A stretch of 25,734 nt of DNA, taken from positions 1 through 25,734 of IMG/VR virus record IMGVR_UViG_3300025543_000181, one strand, 5' to 3'. The DNA is from a virus. Made by a program: the position numbers and the translations under genes. Position 1 is the stretch's first letter. The number at the start of each line of letters is the position of its first letter. The notes under the pieces were generated by a model, which was given only the letters and a program-made list of their open reading frames with translations, was not told where the DNA came from and made no database searches. This document shows positions 14,069 through 25,189 of this stretch, piece after piece.

Positions 14069-14368
14069 TTAGATGATTTCATCTAATATTGATAGTAACT
14101 CACTCTCTCTGTATATGTTGTATGTGTTCTTACCATTCTTATGTTTGAATCCAGTACCATCTAATAATACGGTATCACCCACTTTTACACTCATTGGAAT
14201 CATCTTACCTGTATGTGTATATAATCCCTTTCCCACTGCTATAACAGTCCCTGTCATAGTTGTATCGTTTCCCTGTGGTTTGTATAATCCACCTGATGTT
14301 TTATCATCGTTTCTTTTAATAATCTCAATGACTACTCTGTCCCCTAAAGGTTTGTATTTTGTTTCCAT
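14069..14368 (-). CDS. groES: GroES-like co-chaperonin (T4 gp31 analogue)
   Basis: This 99-aa protein is a clear Cpn10: it opens KPLGDRVVIEII, followed by the mobile-loop region (KTSGGLYKPQGNDTTMTGTV), then GTVIAVGKGLY and a VKVGDTVLLD strand, ending with the C-terminal YRESELLSIL. Length equals that of bacterial GroES (about 95-100). It would cap the host GroEL, as T4 gp31 does, probably to fold the major capsid protein or other phage proteins. It is closer in sequence layout to cellular GroES than T4 gp31 is. The gene starts 3 bp after the ClpP stop and lies upstream of the HD gene, in one operon. Confidence 0.95.
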   Translation of the reverse strand: METKYKPLGDRVVIEIIKRNDDKTSGGLYKPQGNDTTMTGTVIAVGKGLYTHTGKMIPMSVKVGDTVLLDGTGFKHKNGKNTYNIYRESELLSILDEII

Positions 14369-14371
14369 AAC

Positions 14372-15013
14372 TTATATTATTTTATCTATTATTCCTAATT
14401 CTAATGCTTCCTCTGAGTTTAGGAAGTAATCGTTTTGTTGGTTATCAGACCACCATTGTTTATCTTTATTTGTACATTCAGCCATAATCTCATTACAATC
14501 ATTCTCTAATGATTCAGCAAACTTAGCATTCGATTTTAAATCAGATAACTTACCCCCTGCGTAAGATGATAATTGGTGAACCATTATCTTAGAATGTTTG
14601 GATGCTGCTCTAAGACCAGTTCCTGCTGCTAATAGTAGTGCTGCTGCACTCATTGCCATGCCTCTACAAACTATGTTAGTTTTAATTCCATCACTTTGGT
14701 TTAGGCTTCGGATATAATCTATTAATCCTAATGTTTCTACAACATCCCCACCACCTGAATTTAATAGTACGGTTATTGATTTTAGTTCTGGGTTAATCTT
14801 TTTTAGTAACCTAACCTTTGAAATAATATCAAATGTTAATCCAGCCGATATATCATCTTGGATTAATATAATATTATCTTTAATATCAATACCATAATCA
14901 AACTCTCTAAACTCCTGAAACCACTTTTCCTTTTCTGTTTTTCCTGTGGTTTCGTAGTTTGCATCTATATTACCAGTAGTTGTACTTCTACCATCGTTGT
15001 ATAAATCACTCAT
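14372..15013 (-). CDS. clpP: ClpP-family serine protease
   Basis: This 213-aa protein has the ClpP/crotonase-like fold motifs: SGGGDVVETLGLIDYIR (oxyanion strand and helix, about 86-102), nucleophile Ser122 in GMAMSAAALLLAAG, His146 in SKIMVHQLSS and probable catalytic Asp190 in KQWWSDNQQNDYFLNSEEAL. The triad is therefore intact. An N-terminal extension of about 35 residues is Thr/Asn-rich. The phage could use it with a host Clp ATPase, or for prohead maturation as some phages use ClpP-like proteases; context (next to GroES, far from capsid genes) favours a proteostasis or host-takeover role. It heads the ClpP-GroES-HD-membrane-gp55 run behind its own promoter. Confidence 0.93.
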   Translation of the reverse strand: MSDLYNDGRSTTTGNIDANYETTGKTEKEKWFQEFREFDYGIDIKDNIILIQDDISAGLTFDIISKVRLLKKINPELKSITVLLNSGGGDVVETLGLIDYIRSLNQSDGIKTNIVCRGMAMSAAALLLAAGTGLRAASKHSKIMVHQLSSYAGGKLSDLKSNAKFAESLENDCNEIMAECTNKDKQWWSDNQQNDYFLNSEEALELGIIDKII

Positions 15014-15042
15014 AATACTATAATGTTTTTAATTTGTTAATA

Positions 15043-15074
15043 CAAATATACAAAATTTATTTCACATTACCTAA
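15043..15074 (-). promoter_or_regulatory. Bacteroidetes-type promoter upstream of clpP
   Basis: On the minus strand the -7 box is TATATTTG (15043-15050), an exact TAnnTTTG, and the -33 box is TTAG (15071-15074), one mismatch from TTTG, with exactly 20 bp between. The ClpP ATG is 30 bp downstream of the -7 box. It likely starts the ClpP-GroES-HD-membrane protein-gp55 transcript. The TTAACA upstream element is absent here. Confidence 0.7.
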
Positions 15075-15081
15075 TTTATTT

Positions 15082-16101
15082 CTATAAACCTTCATTCTTT
15101 TTTGTTGAGTCGCCATAGTTTTTACCATTTGGGTTTGGGGTAGTTTCTCCATATAGTGTTTTTTTATCAACTTCATGTAATTTTTCTATCTTAACTTTCT
15201 TTGGTTCTTTAACTACAATTGGAGTTGTATCAGCAACTACCACCACCGCTTCTTCTTCTTTTCGAATTGGTTCAACTACATTTGTATTACCACCTATATA
15301 TTTGTTTATTGCAATTACCATTGCTACTGCTAATGGGTCAAACACAAATACGATTAACAACGTAAACCAATTCACAATTATATCCATCGACTTCCCAGTA
15401 ATCTTTGATAGATATCTTAATGGGCCTACTTCAGCTGCAACTTCGTTATTAGATTCCATATCCAATACTTTTAAATCTAAAGAAGTAATTGAATCTGTAA
15501 GAGCTTCCATTTTAGTGGATACAATAAATCTCTGTTCCTTAGTTTCTTTTAATTGTGCTTGTAGAACTCTTCTTGTTGATGATGAGGTAGTTGTAATGAT
15601 TTCACCTGTCTCTTTATCTTTATACTGAATAGTGTTGTTAGATAACCCCTTAGAGAGTTCTGATATTGATTCGTTAAGTTGAATCTTTTCTAACTTATAA
15701 TCAGCTAAAGATTCCGTAAACCTATCTTTCTTTAATTCAACAACTGCTGTTTGTTTATCGATAATAGTTAATTGGTCAGATGTGATTTGATATGCTGATG
15801 TTAAGAATCCATATATACCTGCTGATGTGATTATCATTAGAACAATAACACCAGTCGTTAAGTAACTTTTAAATAACCAACCTAACTTAGACCAATTATT
15901 ATGTAGGTATGATGCCACTATTAATTTAGCGAACTCAAGTGATGTTGCCATAATCATAACTTCTGTCTTTGCTCCAGCAAATAAGGAACTTAACCCAAAC
16001 ACAGAATAATATGCTGCTGAGAATGATAACGAAATGGTTGAAATTACCATTAGAACACCAAACCCAGCCCTCTTAGTAAAAAAGTTATTAACAATTTTCA
16101 T
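15082..16101 (-). CDS. Four-helix membrane protein with long coiled-coil domain (339 aa), unknown function
   Basis: Predicted topology: TM1 about 13-36, TM2 about 46-66 (VMIMATSLEFAKLIVASYL), TM3 about 80-104 (YLTTGVIVLMIITSAGIYGF), a charged coiled coil about 115-215, then GPLRYLSKITGKSMDIIVNW leading into TM4 (about 241-266, FTLLIVFVFDPLAVAMVIAI), and a 70-residue hydrophilic Val/Lys/Glu-rich tail. The GPLRYLSKITG-plus-TM4 block strikes me, from memory, as conserved in several marine T4-like phages, without a known role. The coiled coil would lie on the outer side of the inner membrane if both termini are cytoplasmic (even number of helices). Candidate roles are superinfection exclusion, membrane remodelling or lysis control. 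It has its own promoter with an operator-like palindrome. Confidence 0.82.
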   Translation of the reverse strand: MKIVNNFFTKRAGFGVLMVISTISLSFSAAYYSVFGLSSLFAGAKTEVMIMATSLEFAKLIVASYLHNNWSKLGWLFKSYLTTGVIVLMIITSAGIYGFLTSAYQITSDQLTIIDKQTAVVELKKDRFTESLADYKLEKIQLNESISELSKGLSNNTIQYKDKETGEIITTTSSSTRRVLQAQLKETKEQRFIVSTKMEALTDSITSLDLKVLDMESNNEVAAEVGPLRYLSKITGKSMDIIVNWFTLLIVFVFDPLAVAMVIAINKYIGGNTNVVEPIRKEEEAVVVVADTTPIVVKEPKKVKIEKLHEVDKKTLYGETTPNPNGKNYGDSTKKNEGL

Positions 16102-16165
16102 ATTATTTTATATATTATTGGTTTTACTAAATTCCTGATTTGTACTTATATATAACTCTATTATC

Positions 16166-16197
16166 TTAAAATAAGACAGTGTTGTTAAAACAACAAA
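16166..16197 (-). promoter_or_regulatory. Bacteroidetes-type promoter upstream of the four-helix membrane protein gene
   Basis: On the minus strand the -33 box TTTG is at 16194-16197 and the -7 box TATTTTAA at 16166-16173, with 20 bp between. The leader is about 65 bp to the ATG at 16101. The 154-bp gap between UVDE and this gene holds this promoter, a palindrome across the spacer and otherwise only AT-rich sequence. Confidence 0.6.
16180..16195. promoter_or_regulatory. Palindrome inside promoter spacer, operator-like
   Basis: The sequence TGTTGTTAAAACAACA consists of 7-bp inverted arms (TGTTGTT/AACAACA) around AA. It occupies the spacer and touches the -33 box of the promoter at 16166-16197, the classical position for a repressor that blocks polymerase. 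No binding protein is known. Confidence 0.5.
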
Positions 16198-16255
16198 TAT
16201 AATAATAAATATTAAAATAAAAAGAATTAAATAATCAAACAAGCTAAACCCCACC

Positions 16256-17164
16256 TCATGCGTGCACGCTTTTGTACTGAGCTAGGGTTAATTCTTTCTT
16301 CTTAGCTTCTACCATAATATCTACATCTAATCCATAAGTATTTATATATTCTGAAATGTAATCTGAATGTGCTTGTGGTTTAATCTTATCATTCTCTTCG
16401 TGTAATGATTTAGATTCTGAATAATGAACTACAGGCTTAATATCACCCCAAGTACTAACTGCAAGTTTAAGAGCTTCTTCTTCTGTTAACCCACCTGTAC
16501 AAAACTTATGATGATGATAATCAAATACAATTGGAATACCGATACGTTCGTGAATGTACATTAAATCTGTTACAGAATACATACTAGCCTTATCATCATT
16601 CTCTACAGTCAATCTGTTTTGTGCCGACTGAGGGAGTCTATCAAAGTTCTTACAGAATCTATCCATAGCAGTAATCTTATCTCCGTAAACACCATTACAA
16701 TGGATATTAATCTTATTGTATGGAGTTTGTGATAATCCCATAAGGTCGAACACTTCAGCATGGTCTGTTAGTTCATCAATGGTATTTTGTACTACTCTAT
16801 CATTTGGCGATGGTAATACGTTGAATGGGCCAGGGTGAGTCGTAATACGTTGACCATACTTAGTAGCAAGATTACCAGCACCTTCTAATAGGGTTTTGAT
16901 ACGATTGGCATGTGGCATATCTGATAACTTATATTCAGAATACCACGGAAATAAACCTGAAGTAATTCTAAAGAAGTTAATGCCGTTCTGATGATTCCAT
17001 TTGATAATTTCAATCAAATCTCTACAATTCTGAAGACTCAGCTCTGATGCGTATTCTACACCACGCTCTTTGAACGTTCTCTTAATCATACTACGATTGG
17101 TAGTAATTCTAGGCTTCTGAGAACCCAATGTTTCGTTGATACAAGCGTATCCTAAATTCTGCAT
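16256..17164 (-). CDS. uvsE: UV-damage endonuclease (UVDE/UvsE family)
   Basis: This 302-aa TIM-barrel endonuclease starts with the typical LGYACIN. Metal-ligand positions characteristic of UVDE are visible: H110 (TTHPGPF), H155 (INIHCNG), E188 (LTVENDD), D215 and the following HHH (FDYHHHKF), H247 (VVHYSES), H266 (AHSDYI) and E286 (DIMVEAKKKE). These bind the metals that cleave the backbone 5' of UV photoproducts, starting alternative excision repair. Length matches bacterial UVDE (about 300). T4 uses the unrelated DenV glycosylase for this job, so this is a functional replacement, useful in sunlit water. It has its own promoter 44 bp upstream. No terminator is evident after it. Confidence 0.95.
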   Translation of the reverse strand: MQNLGYACINETLGSQKPRITTNRSMIKRTFKERGVEYASELSLQNCRDLIEIIKWNHQNGINFFRITSGLFPWYSEYKLSDMPHANRIKTLLEGAGNLATKYGQRITTHPGPFNVLPSPNDRVVQNTIDELTDHAEVFDLMGLSQTPYNKINIHCNGVYGDKITAMDRFCKNFDRLPQSAQNRLTVENDDKASMYSVTDLMYIHERIGIPIVFDYHHHKFCTGGLTEEEALKLAVSTWGDIKPVVHYSESKSLHEENDKIKPQAHSDYISEYINTYGLDVDIMVEAKKKELTLAQYKSVHA

Positions 17165-17207
17165 ATTGTTTATTTTTTATGTTTAACTATTAATTTTTAT
17201 TACTCTG

Positions 17208-17239
17208 TAAATGTAAGATTAAAATGTGGTATTACCAAA
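17208..17239 (-). promoter_or_regulatory. Bacteroidetes-type promoter upstream of uvsE
   Basis: On the minus strand -33 TTTG is at 17236-17239 and -7 TACATTTA at 17208-17215, separated by 20 bp. The upstream AATGTTAA (plus strand) element lies 5 bp beyond the -33 box, as in its sister promoters. Confidence 0.75.
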
Positions 17240-17248
17240 CTTATAATG

Positions 17249-17262
17249 TTAACAATTGTTAA
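17249..17262. promoter_or_regulatory. Perfect 14-bp palindrome upstream of the uvsE promoter
   Basis: TTAACAATTGTTAA is a perfect inverted repeat lying just upstream of the -33 box. It corresponds in place to the TTAACAAATTGTTAA elements at 22654-22668 and 25556-25570, and TTACCAAATTGTTAA at 17515-17529. Likely an activator or repressor site. Confidence 0.65.
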
Positions 17263-17285
17263 AAGTTCTATTAGAATATTCTTAA

Positions 17286-17450
17286 TTACTTACATACATT
17301 ACACGTATGTCCATTTTGAATTTTGGTATTCTTACAAACACCACAATCTACAACCTTACCAGCTTTCTCTGCGTGAGCGGACATTTCACTTATTATCTTA
17401 TCTATCTGTTCTATTGGATTTCCACCAAACCAATTATCTAATTCTCTCAT
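17286..17450 (-). CDS. Small four-cysteine zinc-knuckle protein (54 aa)
   Basis: This short gene starts at ATG 17450 (MRELDNWFGGNPIEQIDKII) and stops at TAA 17286-17288. The C-terminal third reads CGVCKNTKIQNGHTCNVCK, i.e. C-x2-C-x10-C-x2-C, a zinc-ribbon/knuckle spacing; the N-terminal part is a helix. A well-formed promoter lies 25 bp upstream, and a terminator isolates it from the previous gene, so it is an independent transcription unit. Small zinc-ribbon proteins of phages often bind RNA polymerase, nucleic acid or host proteins. The function here is unknown. Coding status is supported by promoter, Cys spacing and ATG/stop. Confidence 0.8.
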   Translation of the reverse strand: MRELDNWFGGNPIEQIDKIISEMSAHAEKAGKVVDCGVCKNTKIQNGHTCNVCK

Positions 17451-17463
17451 AACTTTAATCTTT

Positions 17464-17477
17464 TTATTACATAATAA
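17464..17477. promoter_or_regulatory. Palindrome TTATTA-CA-TAATAA at the start of transcription (zinc-knuckle gene)
   Basis: A 14-bp inverted repeat with 2-bp centre overlaps the downstream half of the -7 box. It is part of a 19-bp sequence (17464-17482) identical at 22913-22931 and 25199-25217. Operator or shared start region. Confidence 0.65.
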
Positions 17478-17529
17478 AGATACGGAATTAATTCCATATT
17501 TCCAAATTTTAATGTTACCAAATTGTTAA
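17475..17529 (-). promoter_or_regulatory. Bacteroidetes-type promoter with upstream element, before zinc-knuckle gene
   Basis: On the minus strand -33 TTTG is at 17503-17506 and -7 TATCTTTA at 17475-17482, with 20 bp between. Upstream sit AATGTTAC (17511-17518, plus strand) and an imperfect palindrome to 17529. It closely copies the 37-bp element of the promoters at 22.6 and 25.5 kb, with a one-base deletion and one substitution. Confidence 0.75.
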
Positions 17530-17542
17530 GTCTTTAAGACGT

Positions 17543-17574
17543 AAAAAGGGGAAGCTTAATTAAAAACTCCCCCC
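17543..17574 (-). terminator. Rho-independent terminator after the hsp20-67aa operon
   Basis: On the minus strand a GGGG-rich arm pairs with CTTCCCC across an AT-rich loop (17548-17574; four G-C pairs plus A-T, wobble and T-A pairs), followed directly by TTTTT (17547-17543). It begins 7 bp after the stop of the 67-aa gene, and the next promoter starts at once downstream. Confidence 0.75.
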
Positions 17575-17580
17575 ATTTAG

Positions 17581-17784
17581 TTAATCAGTTGCTATGTTAT
17601 CTTCTTCAATCGGTTCAACATCTACAATTTCTTCACAGAAATAGAAATAGGGTTCTTTTTTAAAAACCCTATCGGCTCTAAGATGTTCACGCCACGTATC
17701 TACAATGGGTCTATCTGAAATTCTGATTTTCCTTAGAACAATGTACAACGTATCTGATATATTTATAACTTCTTTACATAACAT
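17581..17784 (-). CDS. Hypothetical protein (67 aa) co-translated with Hsp20
   Basis: No family recognised. It has a mixed hydrophobic/charged N-terminal two thirds (YIVLRKIRISDRPIVDTWRE) and an acidic tail (EEIVDVEPIEEDN). Its ATG overlaps the Hsp20 stop by one base (TAATG), so it is translationally coupled, and a terminator follows. A partner or accessory to the small heat-shock protein is possible by position only. Confidence 0.65.
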   Translation of the reverse strand: MLCKEVINISDTLYIVLRKIRISDRPIVDTWREHLRADRVFKKEPYFYFCEEIVDVEPIEEDNIATD

Positions 17785-18137
17785 TATTTAACTGATATTG
17801 TTTTTACCCTCTTATCAGATTCTTCTAAAGGTGGTATTGAGATAGTAAGTACCCCATCCAAAACTTTAGCAGTCGTGGCATCCGCATTCCACTTCTGTTC
17901 TATTTTATACTCTTTGTTAAGTGTTCGGTCGCTAGTTTCTCCATTAATAAACAATCGGTTTCCAACGGATTTGATTGTAATTGTATTTTTGGAGAAACCA
18001 GGTACATCGAATTCCATATTCAATACCCCATCATCTGATATATTCATATGGCTTGAGTTGATGGTATTTTTTTGCGATTGGCTAATATTGTTAGCATATA
18101 GTAACCTATCAATTAGTGTGTTTGCATTGTAATTCAT
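17784..18137 (-). CDS. hsp20: Small heat-shock protein, Hsp20/alpha-crystallin family
   Basis: This 117-aa protein carries an alpha-crystallin domain (about 35-110): LNMEFDVPGFSKNTITIK, GNRLFINGETSD, an EYKIEQKW strand, and the conserved L-x-I-x-IP region DGVLTISIPPLEE. It ends KTISVK, giving the I-x-V motif that docks between subunits. Hsp20 holds unfolding proteins for refolding by ATP-dependent chaperones and is seen in many cyanophages and other marine T4-like phages. Its N-terminal arm (about 35 residues, NANTLIDRLLYANNISQSQK) is short. It is followed without gap by the 67-aa gene. A degenerate promoter copy precedes it. Confidence 0.95.
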   Translation of the reverse strand: MNYNANTLIDRLLYANNISQSQKNTINSSHMNISDDGVLNMEFDVPGFSKNTITIKSVGNRLFINGETSDRTLNKEYKIEQKWNADATTAKVLDGVLTISIPPLEESDKRVKTISVK

Positions 18138-21285: not shown

Positions 21286-22557
21286 TTAAAATGGGTTATC
21301 TAATGTATCGGCTTCTACATTGAAAAGGTCTTCTTTTTCGGTAGAACCAACGAACTTCTGAACAAACTGTCGTATGTATGTTCTCTCAGATTGAGCTCCA
21401 CCAGCATCATCAAATAATGGGTAGATAGTAATCTCAGCGGCATCTTCCAAAGTAAACCCATCATAAAGTAGTGAACCAATCTCAACTGCTGTACGAGTCG
21501 AAAGTGCGTTAGTAAGTTGTGGTGTTTCCTTCTTAACTTCTGAACGAGTCATAGAAGTGATTTCAGCAACTGATTGAATACTGCTTATATTAATAGATGG
21601 GTACATCATCTGAAGTAGATTTGTTTCCTCATCTTTAGTTAAAGTATCCATTTCAATAATTTGAAATCTATCAACAATTGCTCTATCCAATTGTCGAGTG
21701 GCGGTGTATTCATTACCAATGTTAGCGGAAGCGATAAAGGAAACACCTTCAGCAACTTTCACAACAGGTGAATCAGAGGCCTCATCTAAACGTAAGTAAC
21801 GTTGCCCAGCATCCAAAACACTCATTAGAATGTTGTGAGCTTCAGGGTGTGCTCTCGTAATCTCATCCAATACAATAACTGTATTTGGAGTTTGGATTGC
21901 TTTCACAAATGGTGAAGGAGAGAACACAGTACCTTTCTTAGTATCGAACTGAGTATTACCGATTAACGTAGCTCTAGGGTCTTGTGTAGAACCTAAGTTG
22001 AATATTTCCATAGTGTAACCTTCAATTGAATTAGCAGCTGCCTTAGCGGCCATAGTTTTACCACAACCAGCTGGTCCGGTCATCATAATGTTCTTACCTC
22101 TAATGATATTACGGATAAGATATTTCCACTTCAGTTCGTTCATAAACAACATCTGTGGTTTTAAATCCTTTGCTTCATTGTGAATGAACTTTAGAAAATC
22201 ATCTTCTAATGGAGCGGCAACAGCCTCTGTTGATGTTGGTGTTGGTGTTGATTTCATTTGGTATTGTTCCAACCCACCATTTGGTTTGTTGAAATTCCCA
22301 ACAGGCTCAGCGCCGTTAAACTTCTCACCTGGCACTCTCCCAAACTCAATTGAACCTTCTGTAAGGTTACCACTCACACGTACCTTAAAACAGTACTTAG
22401 TGGGGTTGTTAGCAGCTGCAACTGCTCTCTTATAAAGAGAACTACCACCCTCATTTAGTTGAGGAACTAAAAATTCAACTCCATTGGAATCAACCAATAT
22501 TAACTCTTTGTTCTCATTTCGAACAACTTTACAAAATACAAATCTCTGTGCTTTCAT
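21286..22557 (-). CDS. MoxR/CobS-like AAA+ ATPase
   Basis: This 423-aa protein has a complete AAA+ core: Walker A GPAGCGKT (161-168), Walker B VIVLDE (227-232), sensor-1 Asn279 in ASANIGNEYTATRQL, an arginine-finger region DRAIVDRF (291-298) and sensor-2 Arg355 in LSTRTAVEIG. The first 100 residues form a separate beta-rich module (FVFCKVVRNENKELILVDSN) followed by a Pro/Thr linker. It belongs to the MoxR-type clade that includes CobS of cobaltochelatase; phage members are often named CobS. The VWA-metallopeptidase gene just upstream is the expected CobT-like partner. MoxR ATPases remodel or load metal into targets chosen by a VWA partner; the substrate here is unknown. A promoter with 5' leader hairpin controls it. 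Confidence 0.9.
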   Translation of the reverse strand: MKAQRFVFCKVVRNENKELILVDSNGVEFLVPQLNEGGSSLYKRAVAAANNPTKYCFKVRVSGNLTEGSIEFGRVPGEKFNGAEPVGNFNKPNGGLEQYQMKSTPTPTSTEAVAAPLEDDFLKFIHNEAKDLKPQMLFMNELKWKYLIRNIIRGKNIMMTGPAGCGKTMAAKAAANSIEGYTMEIFNLGSTQDPRATLIGNTQFDTKKGTVFSPSPFVKAIQTPNTVIVLDEITRAHPEAHNILMSVLDAGQRYLRLDEASDSPVVKVAEGVSFIASANIGNEYTATRQLDRAIVDRFQIIEMDTLTKDEETNLLQMMYPSINISSIQSVAEITSMTRSEVKKETPQLTNALSTRTAVEIGSLLYDGFTLEDAAEITIYPLFDDAGGAQSERTYIRQFVQKFVGSTEKEDLFNVEADTLDNPF

Positions 22558-22583
22558 ATATAACTATTTTTTAATTTTTAATT

Positions 22584-22600
22584 GGGTTAAACCTTAACCC
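22584..22600 (-). promoter_or_regulatory. 5'-leader hairpin in the AAA+ gene transcript
   Basis: In the minus-strand leader GGGTTAA-GGT-TTAACCC forms a 7-bp stem with a 3-nt loop, about 30 nt before the ATG and about 10 nt after the expected transcription start. Because it is so close to the 5' end it may protect the mRNA or bind a translational regulator. Confidence 0.55.
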
Positions 22601-22612
22601 CTTATTACCTTA

Positions 22613-22673
22613 CTAATGTACGACAATTATTTTGATTTACCAAACTTTCAATGTTAACAAATTGTTAAGTCTT
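22613..22673 (-). promoter_or_regulatory. Bacteroidetes-type promoter with upstream element, before AAA+ gene
   Basis: On the minus strand -33 TTTG is at 22641-22644 and -7 TACATTAG at 22613-22620, with 20 bp between. The 37-bp stretch 22637-22673 is identical to 25539-25575 and includes the palindrome TTAACAAATTGTTAA (22654-22668). The stop codon of the 80-aa gene is embedded in this element. Confidence 0.8.
22637..22673. repeat. 37-bp exact repeat, copy 1 (partner at 25539-25575)
   Basis: Identical over 37 bases with the copy in front of the 65-aa membrane gene. Flanks differ at once on both sides, so conservation is selective for the regulatory element and does not reflect a large duplication. 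In both copies the element overlaps the stop codon of the upstream gene. Confidence 0.95.
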
Positions 22674-22907
22674 TGGTAGAGTATAATAGCGAGAGTAATA
22701 ACCAACAGTACCTACCTCTGAATCATCATTATTAATAAACTGAAATCCATTGTAGTTCTTAGAGTTAAAGAGCACCCTTTCTACCATAGTAGAGATACCA
22801 CTCTTAAATCCTACATCAGCATAATCATCAGTTCTACCCAATTGTAAATTGGCCCATTCTACCATCGTAGATACTTCAATTGTTTTTCTTCCTTTCATAT
22901 AACTCAT
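22665..22907 (-). CDS. Conserved hypothetical phage protein (80 aa)
   Basis: The sequence contains TIEVSTMVEWANLQLGRTDD, then FKSGISTMVERVLFNSKNYN, then a YYSRYYTLP end. The pattern 'TMVE.AN.qLaRTD....FK.Gi.tM.E..L....Y.GF' seems familiar from small phage proteins of unknown function; this is recollection, not a search. The gene stands alone between the VWA and AAA+ genes with its own promoter. Met4 is an alternative start 9 bp downstream. Being wedged between the two putative partners, it may be a third component or regulator of them. Confidence 0.72.
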   Translation of the reverse strand: MSYMKGRKTIEVSTMVEWANLQLGRTDDYADVGFKSGISTMVERVLFNSKNYNGFQFINNDDSEVGTVGYYSRYYTLPKT

Positions 22908-22912
22908 CTTTT

Positions 22913-22926
22913 TTATTACATAATAA
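22913..22926. promoter_or_regulatory. Palindrome TTATTA-CA-TAATAA at the start of the 80-aa gene transcript
   Basis: Second of three copies; part of a 19-bp identity (22913-22931) shared with 17464-17482 and 25199-25217. It overlaps the -7 box and expected transcription start. Confidence 0.65.
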
Positions 22927-22955
22927 AGATACGATTAATATCCTTAATAACCTAA
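22924..22955 (-). promoter_or_regulatory. Bacteroidetes-type promoter upstream of the 80-aa gene
   Basis: On the minus strand -7 TATCTTTA is at 22924-22931 and the -33 position reads TTAG (22952-22955), one mismatch, with 20 bp between. A partial upstream element (TTAAAACATT) adjoins. The leader is very short (the -7 box is only 17 bp from the ATG). Confidence 0.6.
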
Positions 22956-22990
22956 TGTTTTAACACTTATTTTAAAAAGTTATTAACAAT

Positions 22991-25189
22991 TTACTGAAAT
23001 AATTTGTTTAACGTCTTAGTTAATGGTATTAAGTTGGTTACATTGATAACCTCAGATGATTTACCATACATCTGCTTGAAACTTTCCATTCCATGAGATA
23101 TATCATAATTATTACCTGATATAAAGTAAGATAACACCTTAACTCCAGCCAACTCCATTTTTTTAACTTGCTTTGCTGTATGTACTATCGCACCATCACC
23201 ACCATATTCAATATCACTATTACTAAACCCTGGATAACCATCAGAGAAGTTAATGAAGTATGAATCAATACCATTAGAAGTTTTAATGATATCATCTAAG
23301 ATAGCCTCAAAACACAAACCTTCAGGAGTAGTACCCGATGGATTAAGATATTGAAATAATTGTTGAATCTTATTAATCTTATCTTTTCGAGAATCATAAG
23401 CGATTAACATAAGTGGTTGAACTGACTGATTAGAATTACCTTGAATACTTCTATAAGATATAACTACATCTAAATTGGGAGTCATTGAAGCCGCCTTAGC
23501 GATTGCAACTGCTGAAGTTTGTGAACTAGTCCATTTACTACCACCCATTGAAGAACTAGCATCAATCGATATATGAACAAGCGCTGGTCTATGTTTATCA
23601 ATTTGAATCTGGTCAAATATGCTTGTGTTACCCATACCTAACTCATGTAGTAATCTGCCTGATATTTTACCATTCTTCATACGGGGTGTAGTTAACGAAC
23701 GTTCCTCAGAACGAAGCTTCAACTTACGACCCAACATAGTTCCAATCTGAATACCTTTAGTTATAGATGGCTGATTACGTTCACATGCCCAAGAGTAACT
23801 ACTTAACATACCAATCGTATCTGATTCAACTAATGCTTTTGAAAAGTTTCTAACTACAACTACTGCAGTTTTCTTTGATTGTCTCCAATAATATTCTGAA
23901 TTATAATCACTACCAACCACTTTTTCTTCAATACCTGCTTTAGATAATGTTTCTAATTTTTGTTGTTCGGTTTTGGAAACTTTCTTCTTTTTTATATCAC
24001 CATTTTGAAATTCCTTTTGTTTCTTAATAGCGTTCTCTAACATTTTCTTCTGACGGTCTGTAAACTTACCATTACCACCACCTTTAGATTCATGCTCAGC
24101 AATAGTGTTATTACCACCAGCTCCACCTGCTCCATTTGGATTGTAAGAAGTAGAACCACTTTGAACCTCATCACCATCAGCATCGCCATTGGAATCATCA
24201 GTACCATTAGAGCCATCTTTAGATTCACCACCTTCACCATCAGTATTATCAGTACCATTAGCTTCTGATGAATCACCACCACCACCATTTCCTTCACCGT
24301 CTTCGCCGGTTTCATTTTCATCAGAACCACTCTCACCGTCACCATCCTCATTTTCTGGTTGAGGTTTTTTAGGTAATGTATCTTCAACCATTGTGAAAAT
24401 CTCACAAGCTAATTCCATTACCTGTTTAGTGTTTTCTAATCTTTTGATATTTTTAAGGTCAATCATATCCCATACTTTCTGTAACATTGGTAGAGCCTCT
24501 AAATCACGATTCTCATTAATGAAATTACAGATACGGAACATATAAGATTCCCAATCATCAGTTCGGTATTCGGAAGAGGCTAACCCCTTATCGATAATTT
24601 TAGCGTTAAAGTATTTATCATACATTGCGTGGTAGTAACCTTTATAACCAGGAGAGGTAGAATAGATGTAGTAATCAATTCGTCTATCTTCAATAATATT
24701 GATTAAATCTTTAACAATACCTTGAACATAAGAACGTGTCTGAGTATAACTCATTCCATGCTTTTCTTCTAAAGATTCCAAATAATCATAAGTGATATGT
24801 TTAGGATAATCGTTAGCTCTTAGGTCTGATAATGTAGTGAAGTCGGTTAGTTTGATATGAGAACCCTCATGCAACGCCAACCCAACGGTTGAATCAAAAT
24901 CCTTACCATCCATCTTAGCTGATATAGTAACTGTTTTACCATCAGTATAAGAATCACCACGCTCATCAAATTTAACCTTAATGTTATCATTAGTTACAAT
25001 GTTAACGAAGTTACCAATTGCTCTCTTATAAGAGGCAAGAGCCATTAGGTTTGAGGATTTTTTATCTTCTTTATCTATTAAAGAAGAATCATCATCTTTA
25101 AACAAATCATTTCCAATCCAATAATTAGAATGTTGGTGCGTATCTTTTTTCATACTTTTTAATTTTAAATTTCTACTAGCTTCAATCAT
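22991..25189 (-). CDS. CobT-like VWA protein with N-terminal zincin-like (HExxH) domain
   Basis: This 732-aa protein has three parts. (1) Residues about 50-270: a metallopeptidase-like domain with H107-E-G-S-H111 in GLALHEGSHIKLTD and a downstream NIIEDRRIDYY (E167) that could be the third zinc ligand. This arrangement recalls the DUF2201-type putative metallopeptidase domain joined to VWA. (2) Residues about 279-375: an extremely acidic Gly/Asp/Asn/Ser/Glu linker, as in CobT/ChlD. (3) Residues about 535-720: a VWA domain with an intact MIDAS, D543-A-S545-S-S547, T620/T621 in PSGTTPEG and D650 in NFSDGYPG. The MoxR/CobS-like ATPase follows downstream. An alternative start is Met13 (25153), preceded by an AATTAAAAA leader. 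It may act in metal insertion, targeted proteolysis or remodelling; unproven. Confidence 0.88.
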   Translation of the reverse strand: MIEASRNLKLKSMKKDTHQHSNYWIGNDLFKDDDSSLIDKEDKKSSNLMALASYKRAIGNFVNIVTNDNIKVKFDERGDSYTDGKTVTISAKMDGKDFDSTVGLALHEGSHIKLTDFTTLSDLRANDYPKHITYDYLESLEEKHGMSYTQTRSYVQGIVKDLINIIEDRRIDYYIYSTSPGYKGYYHAMYDKYFNAKIIDKGLASSEYRTDDWESYMFRICNFINENRDLEALPMLQKVWDMIDLKNIKRLENTKQVMELACEIFTMVEDTLPKKPQPENEDGDGESGSDENETGEDGEGNGGGGDSSEANGTDNTDGEGGESKDGSNGTDDSNGDADGDEVQSGSTSYNPNGAGGAGGNNTIAEHESKGGGNGKFTDRQKKMLENAIKKQKEFQNGDIKKKKVSKTEQQKLETLSKAGIEEKVVGSDYNSEYYWRQSKKTAVVVVRNFSKALVESDTIGMLSSYSWACERNQPSITKGIQIGTMLGRKLKLRSEERSLTTPRMKNGKISGRLLHELGMGNTSIFDQIQIDKHRPALVHISIDASSSMGGSKWTSSQTSAVAIAKAASMTPNLDVVISYRSIQGNSNQSVQPLMLIAYDSRKDKINKIQQLFQYLNPSGTTPEGLCFEAILDDIIKTSNGIDSYFINFSDGYPGFSNSDIEYGGDGAIVHTAKQVKKMELAGVKVLSYFISGNNYDISHGMESFKQMYGKSSEVINVTNLIPLTKTLNKLFQ

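Follow-up and report, generated by a model that had tools for sequence, protein, structure and literature searches.

The window analysed here spans 25,734 bases of an IMG/VR virus record and comes from a contractile-tailed phage; its minus strand holds an ORF of only 54 codons that is preceded by a terminator and a promoter. Is this ORF a gene at all, and do the elements in front of it say anything about its function? On this strand the genes run from Hsp20 through an orphan of 67 aa and the 54-aa ORF to UvdE, with the following features.

17784..18137, minus strand: Hsp20, upstream neighbour (Pfam PF00011, E=4.7e-11)
17581..17784, minus strand: orphan gene of 67 aa that forms the left border of the slot described below (no Pfam, PHROGs or NCBIfam family)
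17547..17574, minus strand: intrinsic terminator that closes the 67-aa gene and opens the slot, GGGGGGAG..CTTCCCCTTTTT, 11 pairs
17511..17529, minus strand: upstream box TTAACAATTTGGTAACATT, its second half one base off TTAACA
17475..17505, minus strand: promoter of the 54-aa gene, TTG (-33, 17505) N20 TATCTTTA (-7, 17482-17475)
17484..17495, no strand: perfect palindrome GGAATTAATTCC within the promoter spacer, where many relatives have a terminator hairpin
17286..17450, minus strand: 54-aa ORF (ATG, 54 codons, TAA), predicted helix at about residues 12-30
17208..17260, minus strand: second promoter, that of uvdE, TTAACAATTGTTAACATT...TTTGG N19 TACATTTA
16256..17164, minus strand: uvdE, UV-damage endonuclease, right border of the slot (Pfam PF03851, E=8.3e-63)

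The baseplate wedge proteins of the window are similar to their counterparts in Microcystis phage Mel-JY01 (51%) and in Flavobacterium phage immuto (43.5%). GroES, ClpP, Hsp20 and UvdE lie within 4 kb (14069-18137) and form a phage stress and repair cluster. Elsewhere, at 21286-25189, a MoxR-like AAA ATPase is paired with a large VWA/cobalamin-chelatase-like protein, an arrangement that resembles the CobS/CobT pairs of other phages.

A four-cysteine ORF without a database family

The ORF, MRELDNWFGGNPIEQIDKIISEMSAHAEKAGKVVDCGVCKNTKIQNGHTCNVCK, is exactly as the original prediction described it: C36, C39, C50 and C53 make up a C-x2-C-x10-C-x2-C motif (residues 36-53). The label "zinc knuckle" does not suit it, as the motif is of the C4 type and does not follow the CCHC pattern. 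When the window was shuffled 200 times with its dinucleotides preserved, an ORF of 30-120 aa with C..C-x6-16-C..C turned up 0.02 times per shuffle on average, and four of the 200 shuffles reached the observed count of one. The motif alone is therefore suggestive rather than decisive, and the decision falls to the relatives.

The product is predicted to consist of one amphipathic helix followed by a C-terminal four-cysteine site. The position of the helix was taken from two AF2 models of low confidence (mean pLDDT 60.5 and 56.9). Judging from the four conserved cysteines, the site most likely binds one zinc ion. Searches of Pfam, PHROGs and NCBIfam with the family described below gave no match above a curated cut-off or with a convincing E-value. 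The best Pfam score was E=0.023 (14.6 bits against a cut-off of 26.5) and the best PHROG E=0.13, while NCBIfam returned none; the weak Pfam matches included zf-primase (E=0.076), DUF3797 and the Mcm10 zinc motif, all under their cut-offs. Sequence and profile searches of the PDB yielded chance-level matches only.

Three branches of one phage family

A search with the 54-aa protein retrieved only four contigs at 96-100% identity. These close copies are uninformative, as 3 of 165 bases differ. Degenerate DNA patterns that encode the cysteine skeleton led further, to a 51-aa branch (L114 and L161; scan of 80 loci with 84 matches, 28 of which lay in stretches of more than 160 aa and were left out) and to a 58-aa branch (six loci; scan of 61 loci, with the 43 matches that lack a stop inside the motif listed). 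Searching with the joint alignment brought the family to 20 IMG/VR contigs, namely four with the 54-aa, 14 with the 58-aa and two with the 51-aa form, and a final pattern scan for further members added none.

Identity to the window protein is 41% for the 51-aa branch and 56-63% for the 58-aa branch. Sixteen alignment columns are invariant across the three branches, and all four cysteines are among them. The cysteines are kept in 17 of 17 coding sequences (the window included, several of them identical), a count that partly reflects the method, since cysteine codons were demanded in two of the searches and in the extraction of coding sequences (in the extraction, those of the first CxxC). Within the 58-aa branch, dN/dS was 0.12-0.57 in 27 of 28 pairs, the remaining pair having no amino-acid change; between this branch and the window it was 0.17-0.42, with dS near saturation. 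By these measures the ORF appears to be a translated gene under purifying selection. Frame and cysteines, whose loss in relatives had been named beforehand as the test of the gene, held even in the branches at 41-63% identity. The claim of a real but easily missed gene is thus borne out by a family in 20 contigs, by the retained cysteines and by purifying selection.

No member was found in 50,697 phage records, immuto and Mel-JY01 included, and two contig scans of bacterial and archaeal genomes revealed no relatives. As far as these searches reach, the family seems to be restricted to phages, with three branches and no name. It is a selected protein family below the usual length cut-offs that no database lists. 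The 51-aa gene is the first one after a terminator-like hairpin and a TATATTTA box; its neighbours are unknown genes, with no recognisable replication genes among them.

Terminator and promoter belong to a cargo slot

The original prediction took the terminator and the dedicated promoter as a special investment in a tiny gene, and hence as a sign of a potent regulator or host-takeover factor. We compared the stretches upstream of uvdE in the best 80 of 456 UvdE relatives and in the window; after removal of two with 30 bases or fewer, 79 were left. The 67-aa gene precedes uvdE in 56 of these 79. The gap between the two genes contains a terminator in every one of the 56 loci, although in 33 of them it measures only 72-147 bp and holds no inserted gene. 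The promoter pattern is found in 51 of the 56 gaps, and the matches in L067 and L068 fall inside a coding region.

The contents of the gap vary. The 54-aa gene occupies it in the window, L006, L007, L012 and L026, and a 43-47-aa basic ORF does so in L019, L022, L024 and L035. Two short hydrophobic ORFs are found in L020, L021 and L023, and an ORF of up to 112 aa in L067 and L068. A gene that we take, from our own reading of its motif, to be HAD-phosphatase-like sits there with or without further ORFs in L058, L060, L062, L063, L073, L074 and L077; the gaps of L075 and L076 have the same length as those of L073 and L074. The gap is a cargo slot with at least five unrelated small inserts. Since the terminator is present in all 56 gaps whatever they contain, terminator and promoter are fixtures of the slot. 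As a separate observation, the strongly basic 43-47-aa ORF (L019:7780-8000, L035:7780-8000) represents another unnamed family of small genes.

The claims about the two elements therefore hold in part. A terminator does stand before the 54-aa gene, but it terminates the 67-aa gene and, as a constant feature of the slot, does not belong to this gene. The promoter is present as well, but it is not exclusive: in L012 and L026 the 54-aa gene directly precedes uvdE and no second promoter was found between them. The argument from investment fails on three counts. The terminator occurs in 56 of 56 loci, among them the 33 whose slot is free of inserted genes; unrelated small ORFs hold the same slot in other loci; and the gene of the 58-aa branch is not immediately preceded by a terminator-promoter of its own, its neighbours being small ORFs before it and a DNA polymerase gene after it. 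We have dropped the host-takeover reading insofar as it rested on these elements, which are there whatever the slot contains. More generally, that a tiny phage gene has its own terminator and promoter says little about its importance when both belong to the slot.

Recent exchange of the cassette

The 54-aa gene and its flanks have different histories. Between the window and L012, identity is 162/165 in the ORF and 37/37 in the leader, against 707/901 in uvdE. Between the window and L026 it is again 162/165 in the ORF, against 688/899 in uvdE, 151/200 in the 67-aa gene and 207/341 in Hsp20. The cassette DNA is thus 98% identical in two diverged relatives while uvdE is only 77-78% identical, and therefore the exchange between the window lineage and L012/L026 is recent. 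The border of the exchange in L026 lies at the -7 element and leader, where identity changes from 98% in the cassette to 61-77% in the flanking genes. The reverse case is seen in L008 and L009, which lack the cassette although their uvdE is 94-95% identical to that of the window.

We propose that a cassette of leader and ORF spreads between related phages by exchange at the conserved terminator and promoter sequences. Transcription would begin at the shared promoter. In the window it would stop short of uvdE's own promoter, while in L012 and L026 it would run on into uvdE.

A three-part promoter and its fusion with the terminator

The promoter of the 54-aa gene has the spacing of a promoter found throughout the clade. 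The full three-part pattern, TTAACA-N8-TTG-N20-TAnnTTWR, has 59 matches in 10 of 16 records, and the same pattern read backwards has one. Spacer 20 is in excess with 342 occurrences, compared to 44-142 at the other spacers from 15 to 25 (counted over redundant loci). Exact copies of the three-part promoter lie on the minus strand of the window at 17252-17208, 22657-22613, 25254-25210 and 25559-25515. A phage or host activator may bind at the TTAACA box.

The Bacteroidetes -33/-7 consensus is TTTG / TAnnTTTG (PMC2483708). Together with the likeness to immuto, this consensus hints at a Bacteroidetes host, with the likeness to Mel-JY01 leaving room for others.

Many slots have terminator and promoter merged into a single fused element, TTAACATAGGGGGCTTGTATAAGTCCCCTTTTTTTATTATCTTTA, in which the TTG sits at the hairpin top and the T-run falls into the promoter spacer. 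L026:7730-7796 and L010:1227-1293 are examples, with the -33 TTG exactly 20 nt from the -7. The TTG and TA..TT positions of the alignment are invariant by construction of the search and were not counted as evidence; what counts is the exact N20, the covariation and a count that starts from the hairpins. The spacer is 20 in all 29 distinct fused elements, with 17-21 allowed. Four pairs of the stem show double changes, and none of 500 shuffles reached the covariation score, for a stem shared by all of the 29 rows except L054 and L055. When hairpins were taken first and no promoter was demanded, 10 of 22 distinct terminators contained TTG-N20-TAnnTTWR. The two rows that do not fit (L054:5522-5588 and L055:6281-6347) have a longer, differently placed hairpin and keep TTG-N20-TATCTTTA.

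A stricter version of the fused pattern gave 8 matches in only 6 of 19 records, and therefore the fused form is local, not genome-wide. It is absent from the window, where the GGAATTAATTCC palindrome fills the spacer and terminator and promoter are separate; in L026, the 54-aa gene sits behind the fused form. To share bases between hairpin and promoter in this way is a compact form of terminator-promoter.

The 58-aa branch precedes a DNA polymerase gene

In all 13 contigs that continue beyond the 58-aa gene, among 14 loci, the next gene downstream is that of a family-A DNA polymerase. The distance to this 420-aa gene is 16-17 nt. The polymerase is supported by PHROGs (4e-11), Pfam (2e-5) and PDB (Taq polymerase, 2e-5) and matches the 'DNA polymerase family A' of immuto at 9e-41. 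Downstream of it follow an unknown 697-aa protein, a gp32-like SSB, a UvsX-like recombinase and a 5'-3' exonuclease. The 697-aa protein (L232:9453-11546) is well conserved and had no match in PHROGs, Pfam, PDB sequences or phage records. Immuto has the same module order as the 58-aa loci (polymerase, SSB, recombinase, exonuclease, helicase), with hypothetical genes after its polymerase gene, an example of the small ORFs that T4-like phages have between replication genes, but no member of the family was found in it.

The last codons and the stop of the 58-aa gene (TTTGGATAA.TCAAAATAAATTCGTATATTTACATATGG) hold the -33 and the spacer of the polymerase promoter in six loci. The 58-aa form has an LDNSK tail, missing from the 54-aa form, because its gene end carries this promoter. 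In L232:8150-8200 and five further loci, the polymerase ATG follows the -7 of its promoter by about 3 nt, which could mean a leaderless mRNA or a true start further downstream.

One candidate motif was rejected. The 54- and 58-aa branches share an N-terminal L-D-x-[MW]-F-G-G that resembled a T4-type clamp-binding peptide and is absent from the 51-aa branch. In 2,483 distinct ORFs from the loci, only one other protein of more than 80 aa has a match near a terminus, and the peptide is absent from the recognised replication proteins in the parts of G023, G033 and G051 that were covered.

Possible function of the family

The 58-aa gene has a fixed place before the polymerase gene, and contig G023 contains this gene and, separately, a uvdE with an empty slot. 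Therefore, we favour an accessory role: the family would serve phage replication or repair as a small accessory protein or an adaptor between proteins, and the copy in the window would have moved into the uvdE slot, which is bounded by the terminator and entered from the shared promoter. Neighbourhood is weak evidence of function, and the slot explains why uvdE is the neighbour in the window. For the joint reading, an accessory protein with a C4 zinc site that serves phage DNA replication or repair and moved on PeSL-like cassettes (see below), we estimate a probability of roughly 0.5. A bolder version would make it a dedicated small zinc subunit or regulator of the family-A polymerase replisome, tied to the polymerase gene in most of the phages and captured as a mobile cassette before uvdE in the window lineage, with the hybrid that carries the -33 in its hairpin as an exchange hub for small genes; this we consider unlikely.

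The gene might also be neutral or weakly useful cargo, an interchangeable small ORF that fills a terminator-promoter slot and has no set part to play in the window lineage. The slot itself invites this thought, with its at least five unrelated occupants, its 33 of 56 cases without insert and the missing gene in L008 and L009, which are near the window in uvdE. However, purifying selection and the fixed position before the polymerase in the 58-aa branch are not expected of cargo, nor are a helix and cysteines conserved across 41% identity, so that we regard this explanation as doubtful.

It is improbable, too, that the product is a host-takeover factor, that is, an early small protein binding host RNA polymerase or a host nuclease. 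Its small size and the host-type -33/-7 promoter would fit, and patchy presence with rapid exchange between phages is typical of host-directed accessory genes. On the other hand, terminator and promoter are properties of the slot, and the commonest branch sits in a replication module under purifying selection. PDB sequence searches showed no similarity of the family to known anti-RNAP proteins or solved structures. We found no pointer to RNA polymerase or a host nuclease as target, and the recurrent neighbourhood is that of DNA replication and repair.

That the ORF is spurious, the true gene being the antisense 68-aa ORF at 17246-17452 (plus strand) or nothing, is scarcely credible. The window, L230 and L231 do have an open antisense frame, but all three antisense frames are broken in L245, it is the protein sequence and not the antisense frame that is kept at 41-63% identity with an excess of synonymous change, and promoter and leader agree with the minus strand.

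For an accessory protein of replication or repair, the fixed place before a phage DNA polymerase offers a handle for testing what the family does.

Comparison with known systems

Two CxxC pairs spaced by x10 are known from anti-TRAP and from half of the DnaJ zinc domain, and the arrangement C36-x2-C39-x10-C50-x2-C53 has the same spacing. Anti-TRAP (AT, RtpA) of Bacillus, with 53 residues, two CxxC pairs and zinc, is also close in size to the 54-aa protein, whose own zinc we infer from the cysteines. Anti-TRAP is similar to DnaJ, depends on zinc and has been compared with it by the CXXCXGXG motif (PMC2896485). The glycines of this motif are absent from the family alignment, which has CG[VL]CKNTK and C..C without GXG (CGVCKNTK, CNVCK); therefore, membership with DnaJ or anti-TRAP is not claimed. 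Moreover, the helix precedes the putative zinc site instead of following it, and the PDB profile search gave no sequence match between the family and anti-TRAP or DnaJ.

With the zinc knuckle (CCHC, C-x2-C-x4-H-x4-C), the protein shares a short cysteine-based site, presumably for zinc, in a small protein. It differs in its four cysteines and the x10 spacing; no CCHC is found, and His48 is not conserved in the other branches.

The closest parallel to the slot is PeSL. Arbiol (2010) is said to have described PeSL (promoter early stem-loop) as a composite promoter-terminator motif of T4-type myoviruses, and Comeau (2014) reportedly dealt with PeSL cassettes of the same phages. Such cassettes combine a terminator stem-loop with a host-type promoter, carry small non-essential ORFs behind it and have their exchange borders at these elements. 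The uvdE slot is alike in all of this. A stem-loop terminator (56 of 56 gaps) is joined to a promoter (51 of 56) in an intergenic region, and gene-shuffling borders lie at the terminator-promoter element, as seen in L026 and from the unrelated occupants elsewhere. It differs from PeSL in its promoter, -33 TTG and -7 TAnnTTWR (also written TAnnTTTR) with N20 and a TTAACA box, and in that many loci have the -33 TTG inside the terminator hairpin and the T-run in the spacer. PeSL of T4-type coliphage has a sigma70-like early promoter. The slot promoter, TTG-N20-TAnnTTWR with the TTAACA box, is not of this kind, and therefore we do not file the slot element as T4 type. By analogy, the predicted element works like PeSL, which would extend the idea of such hybrids as points of gene exchange to phages with Bacteroidetes-type promoters.
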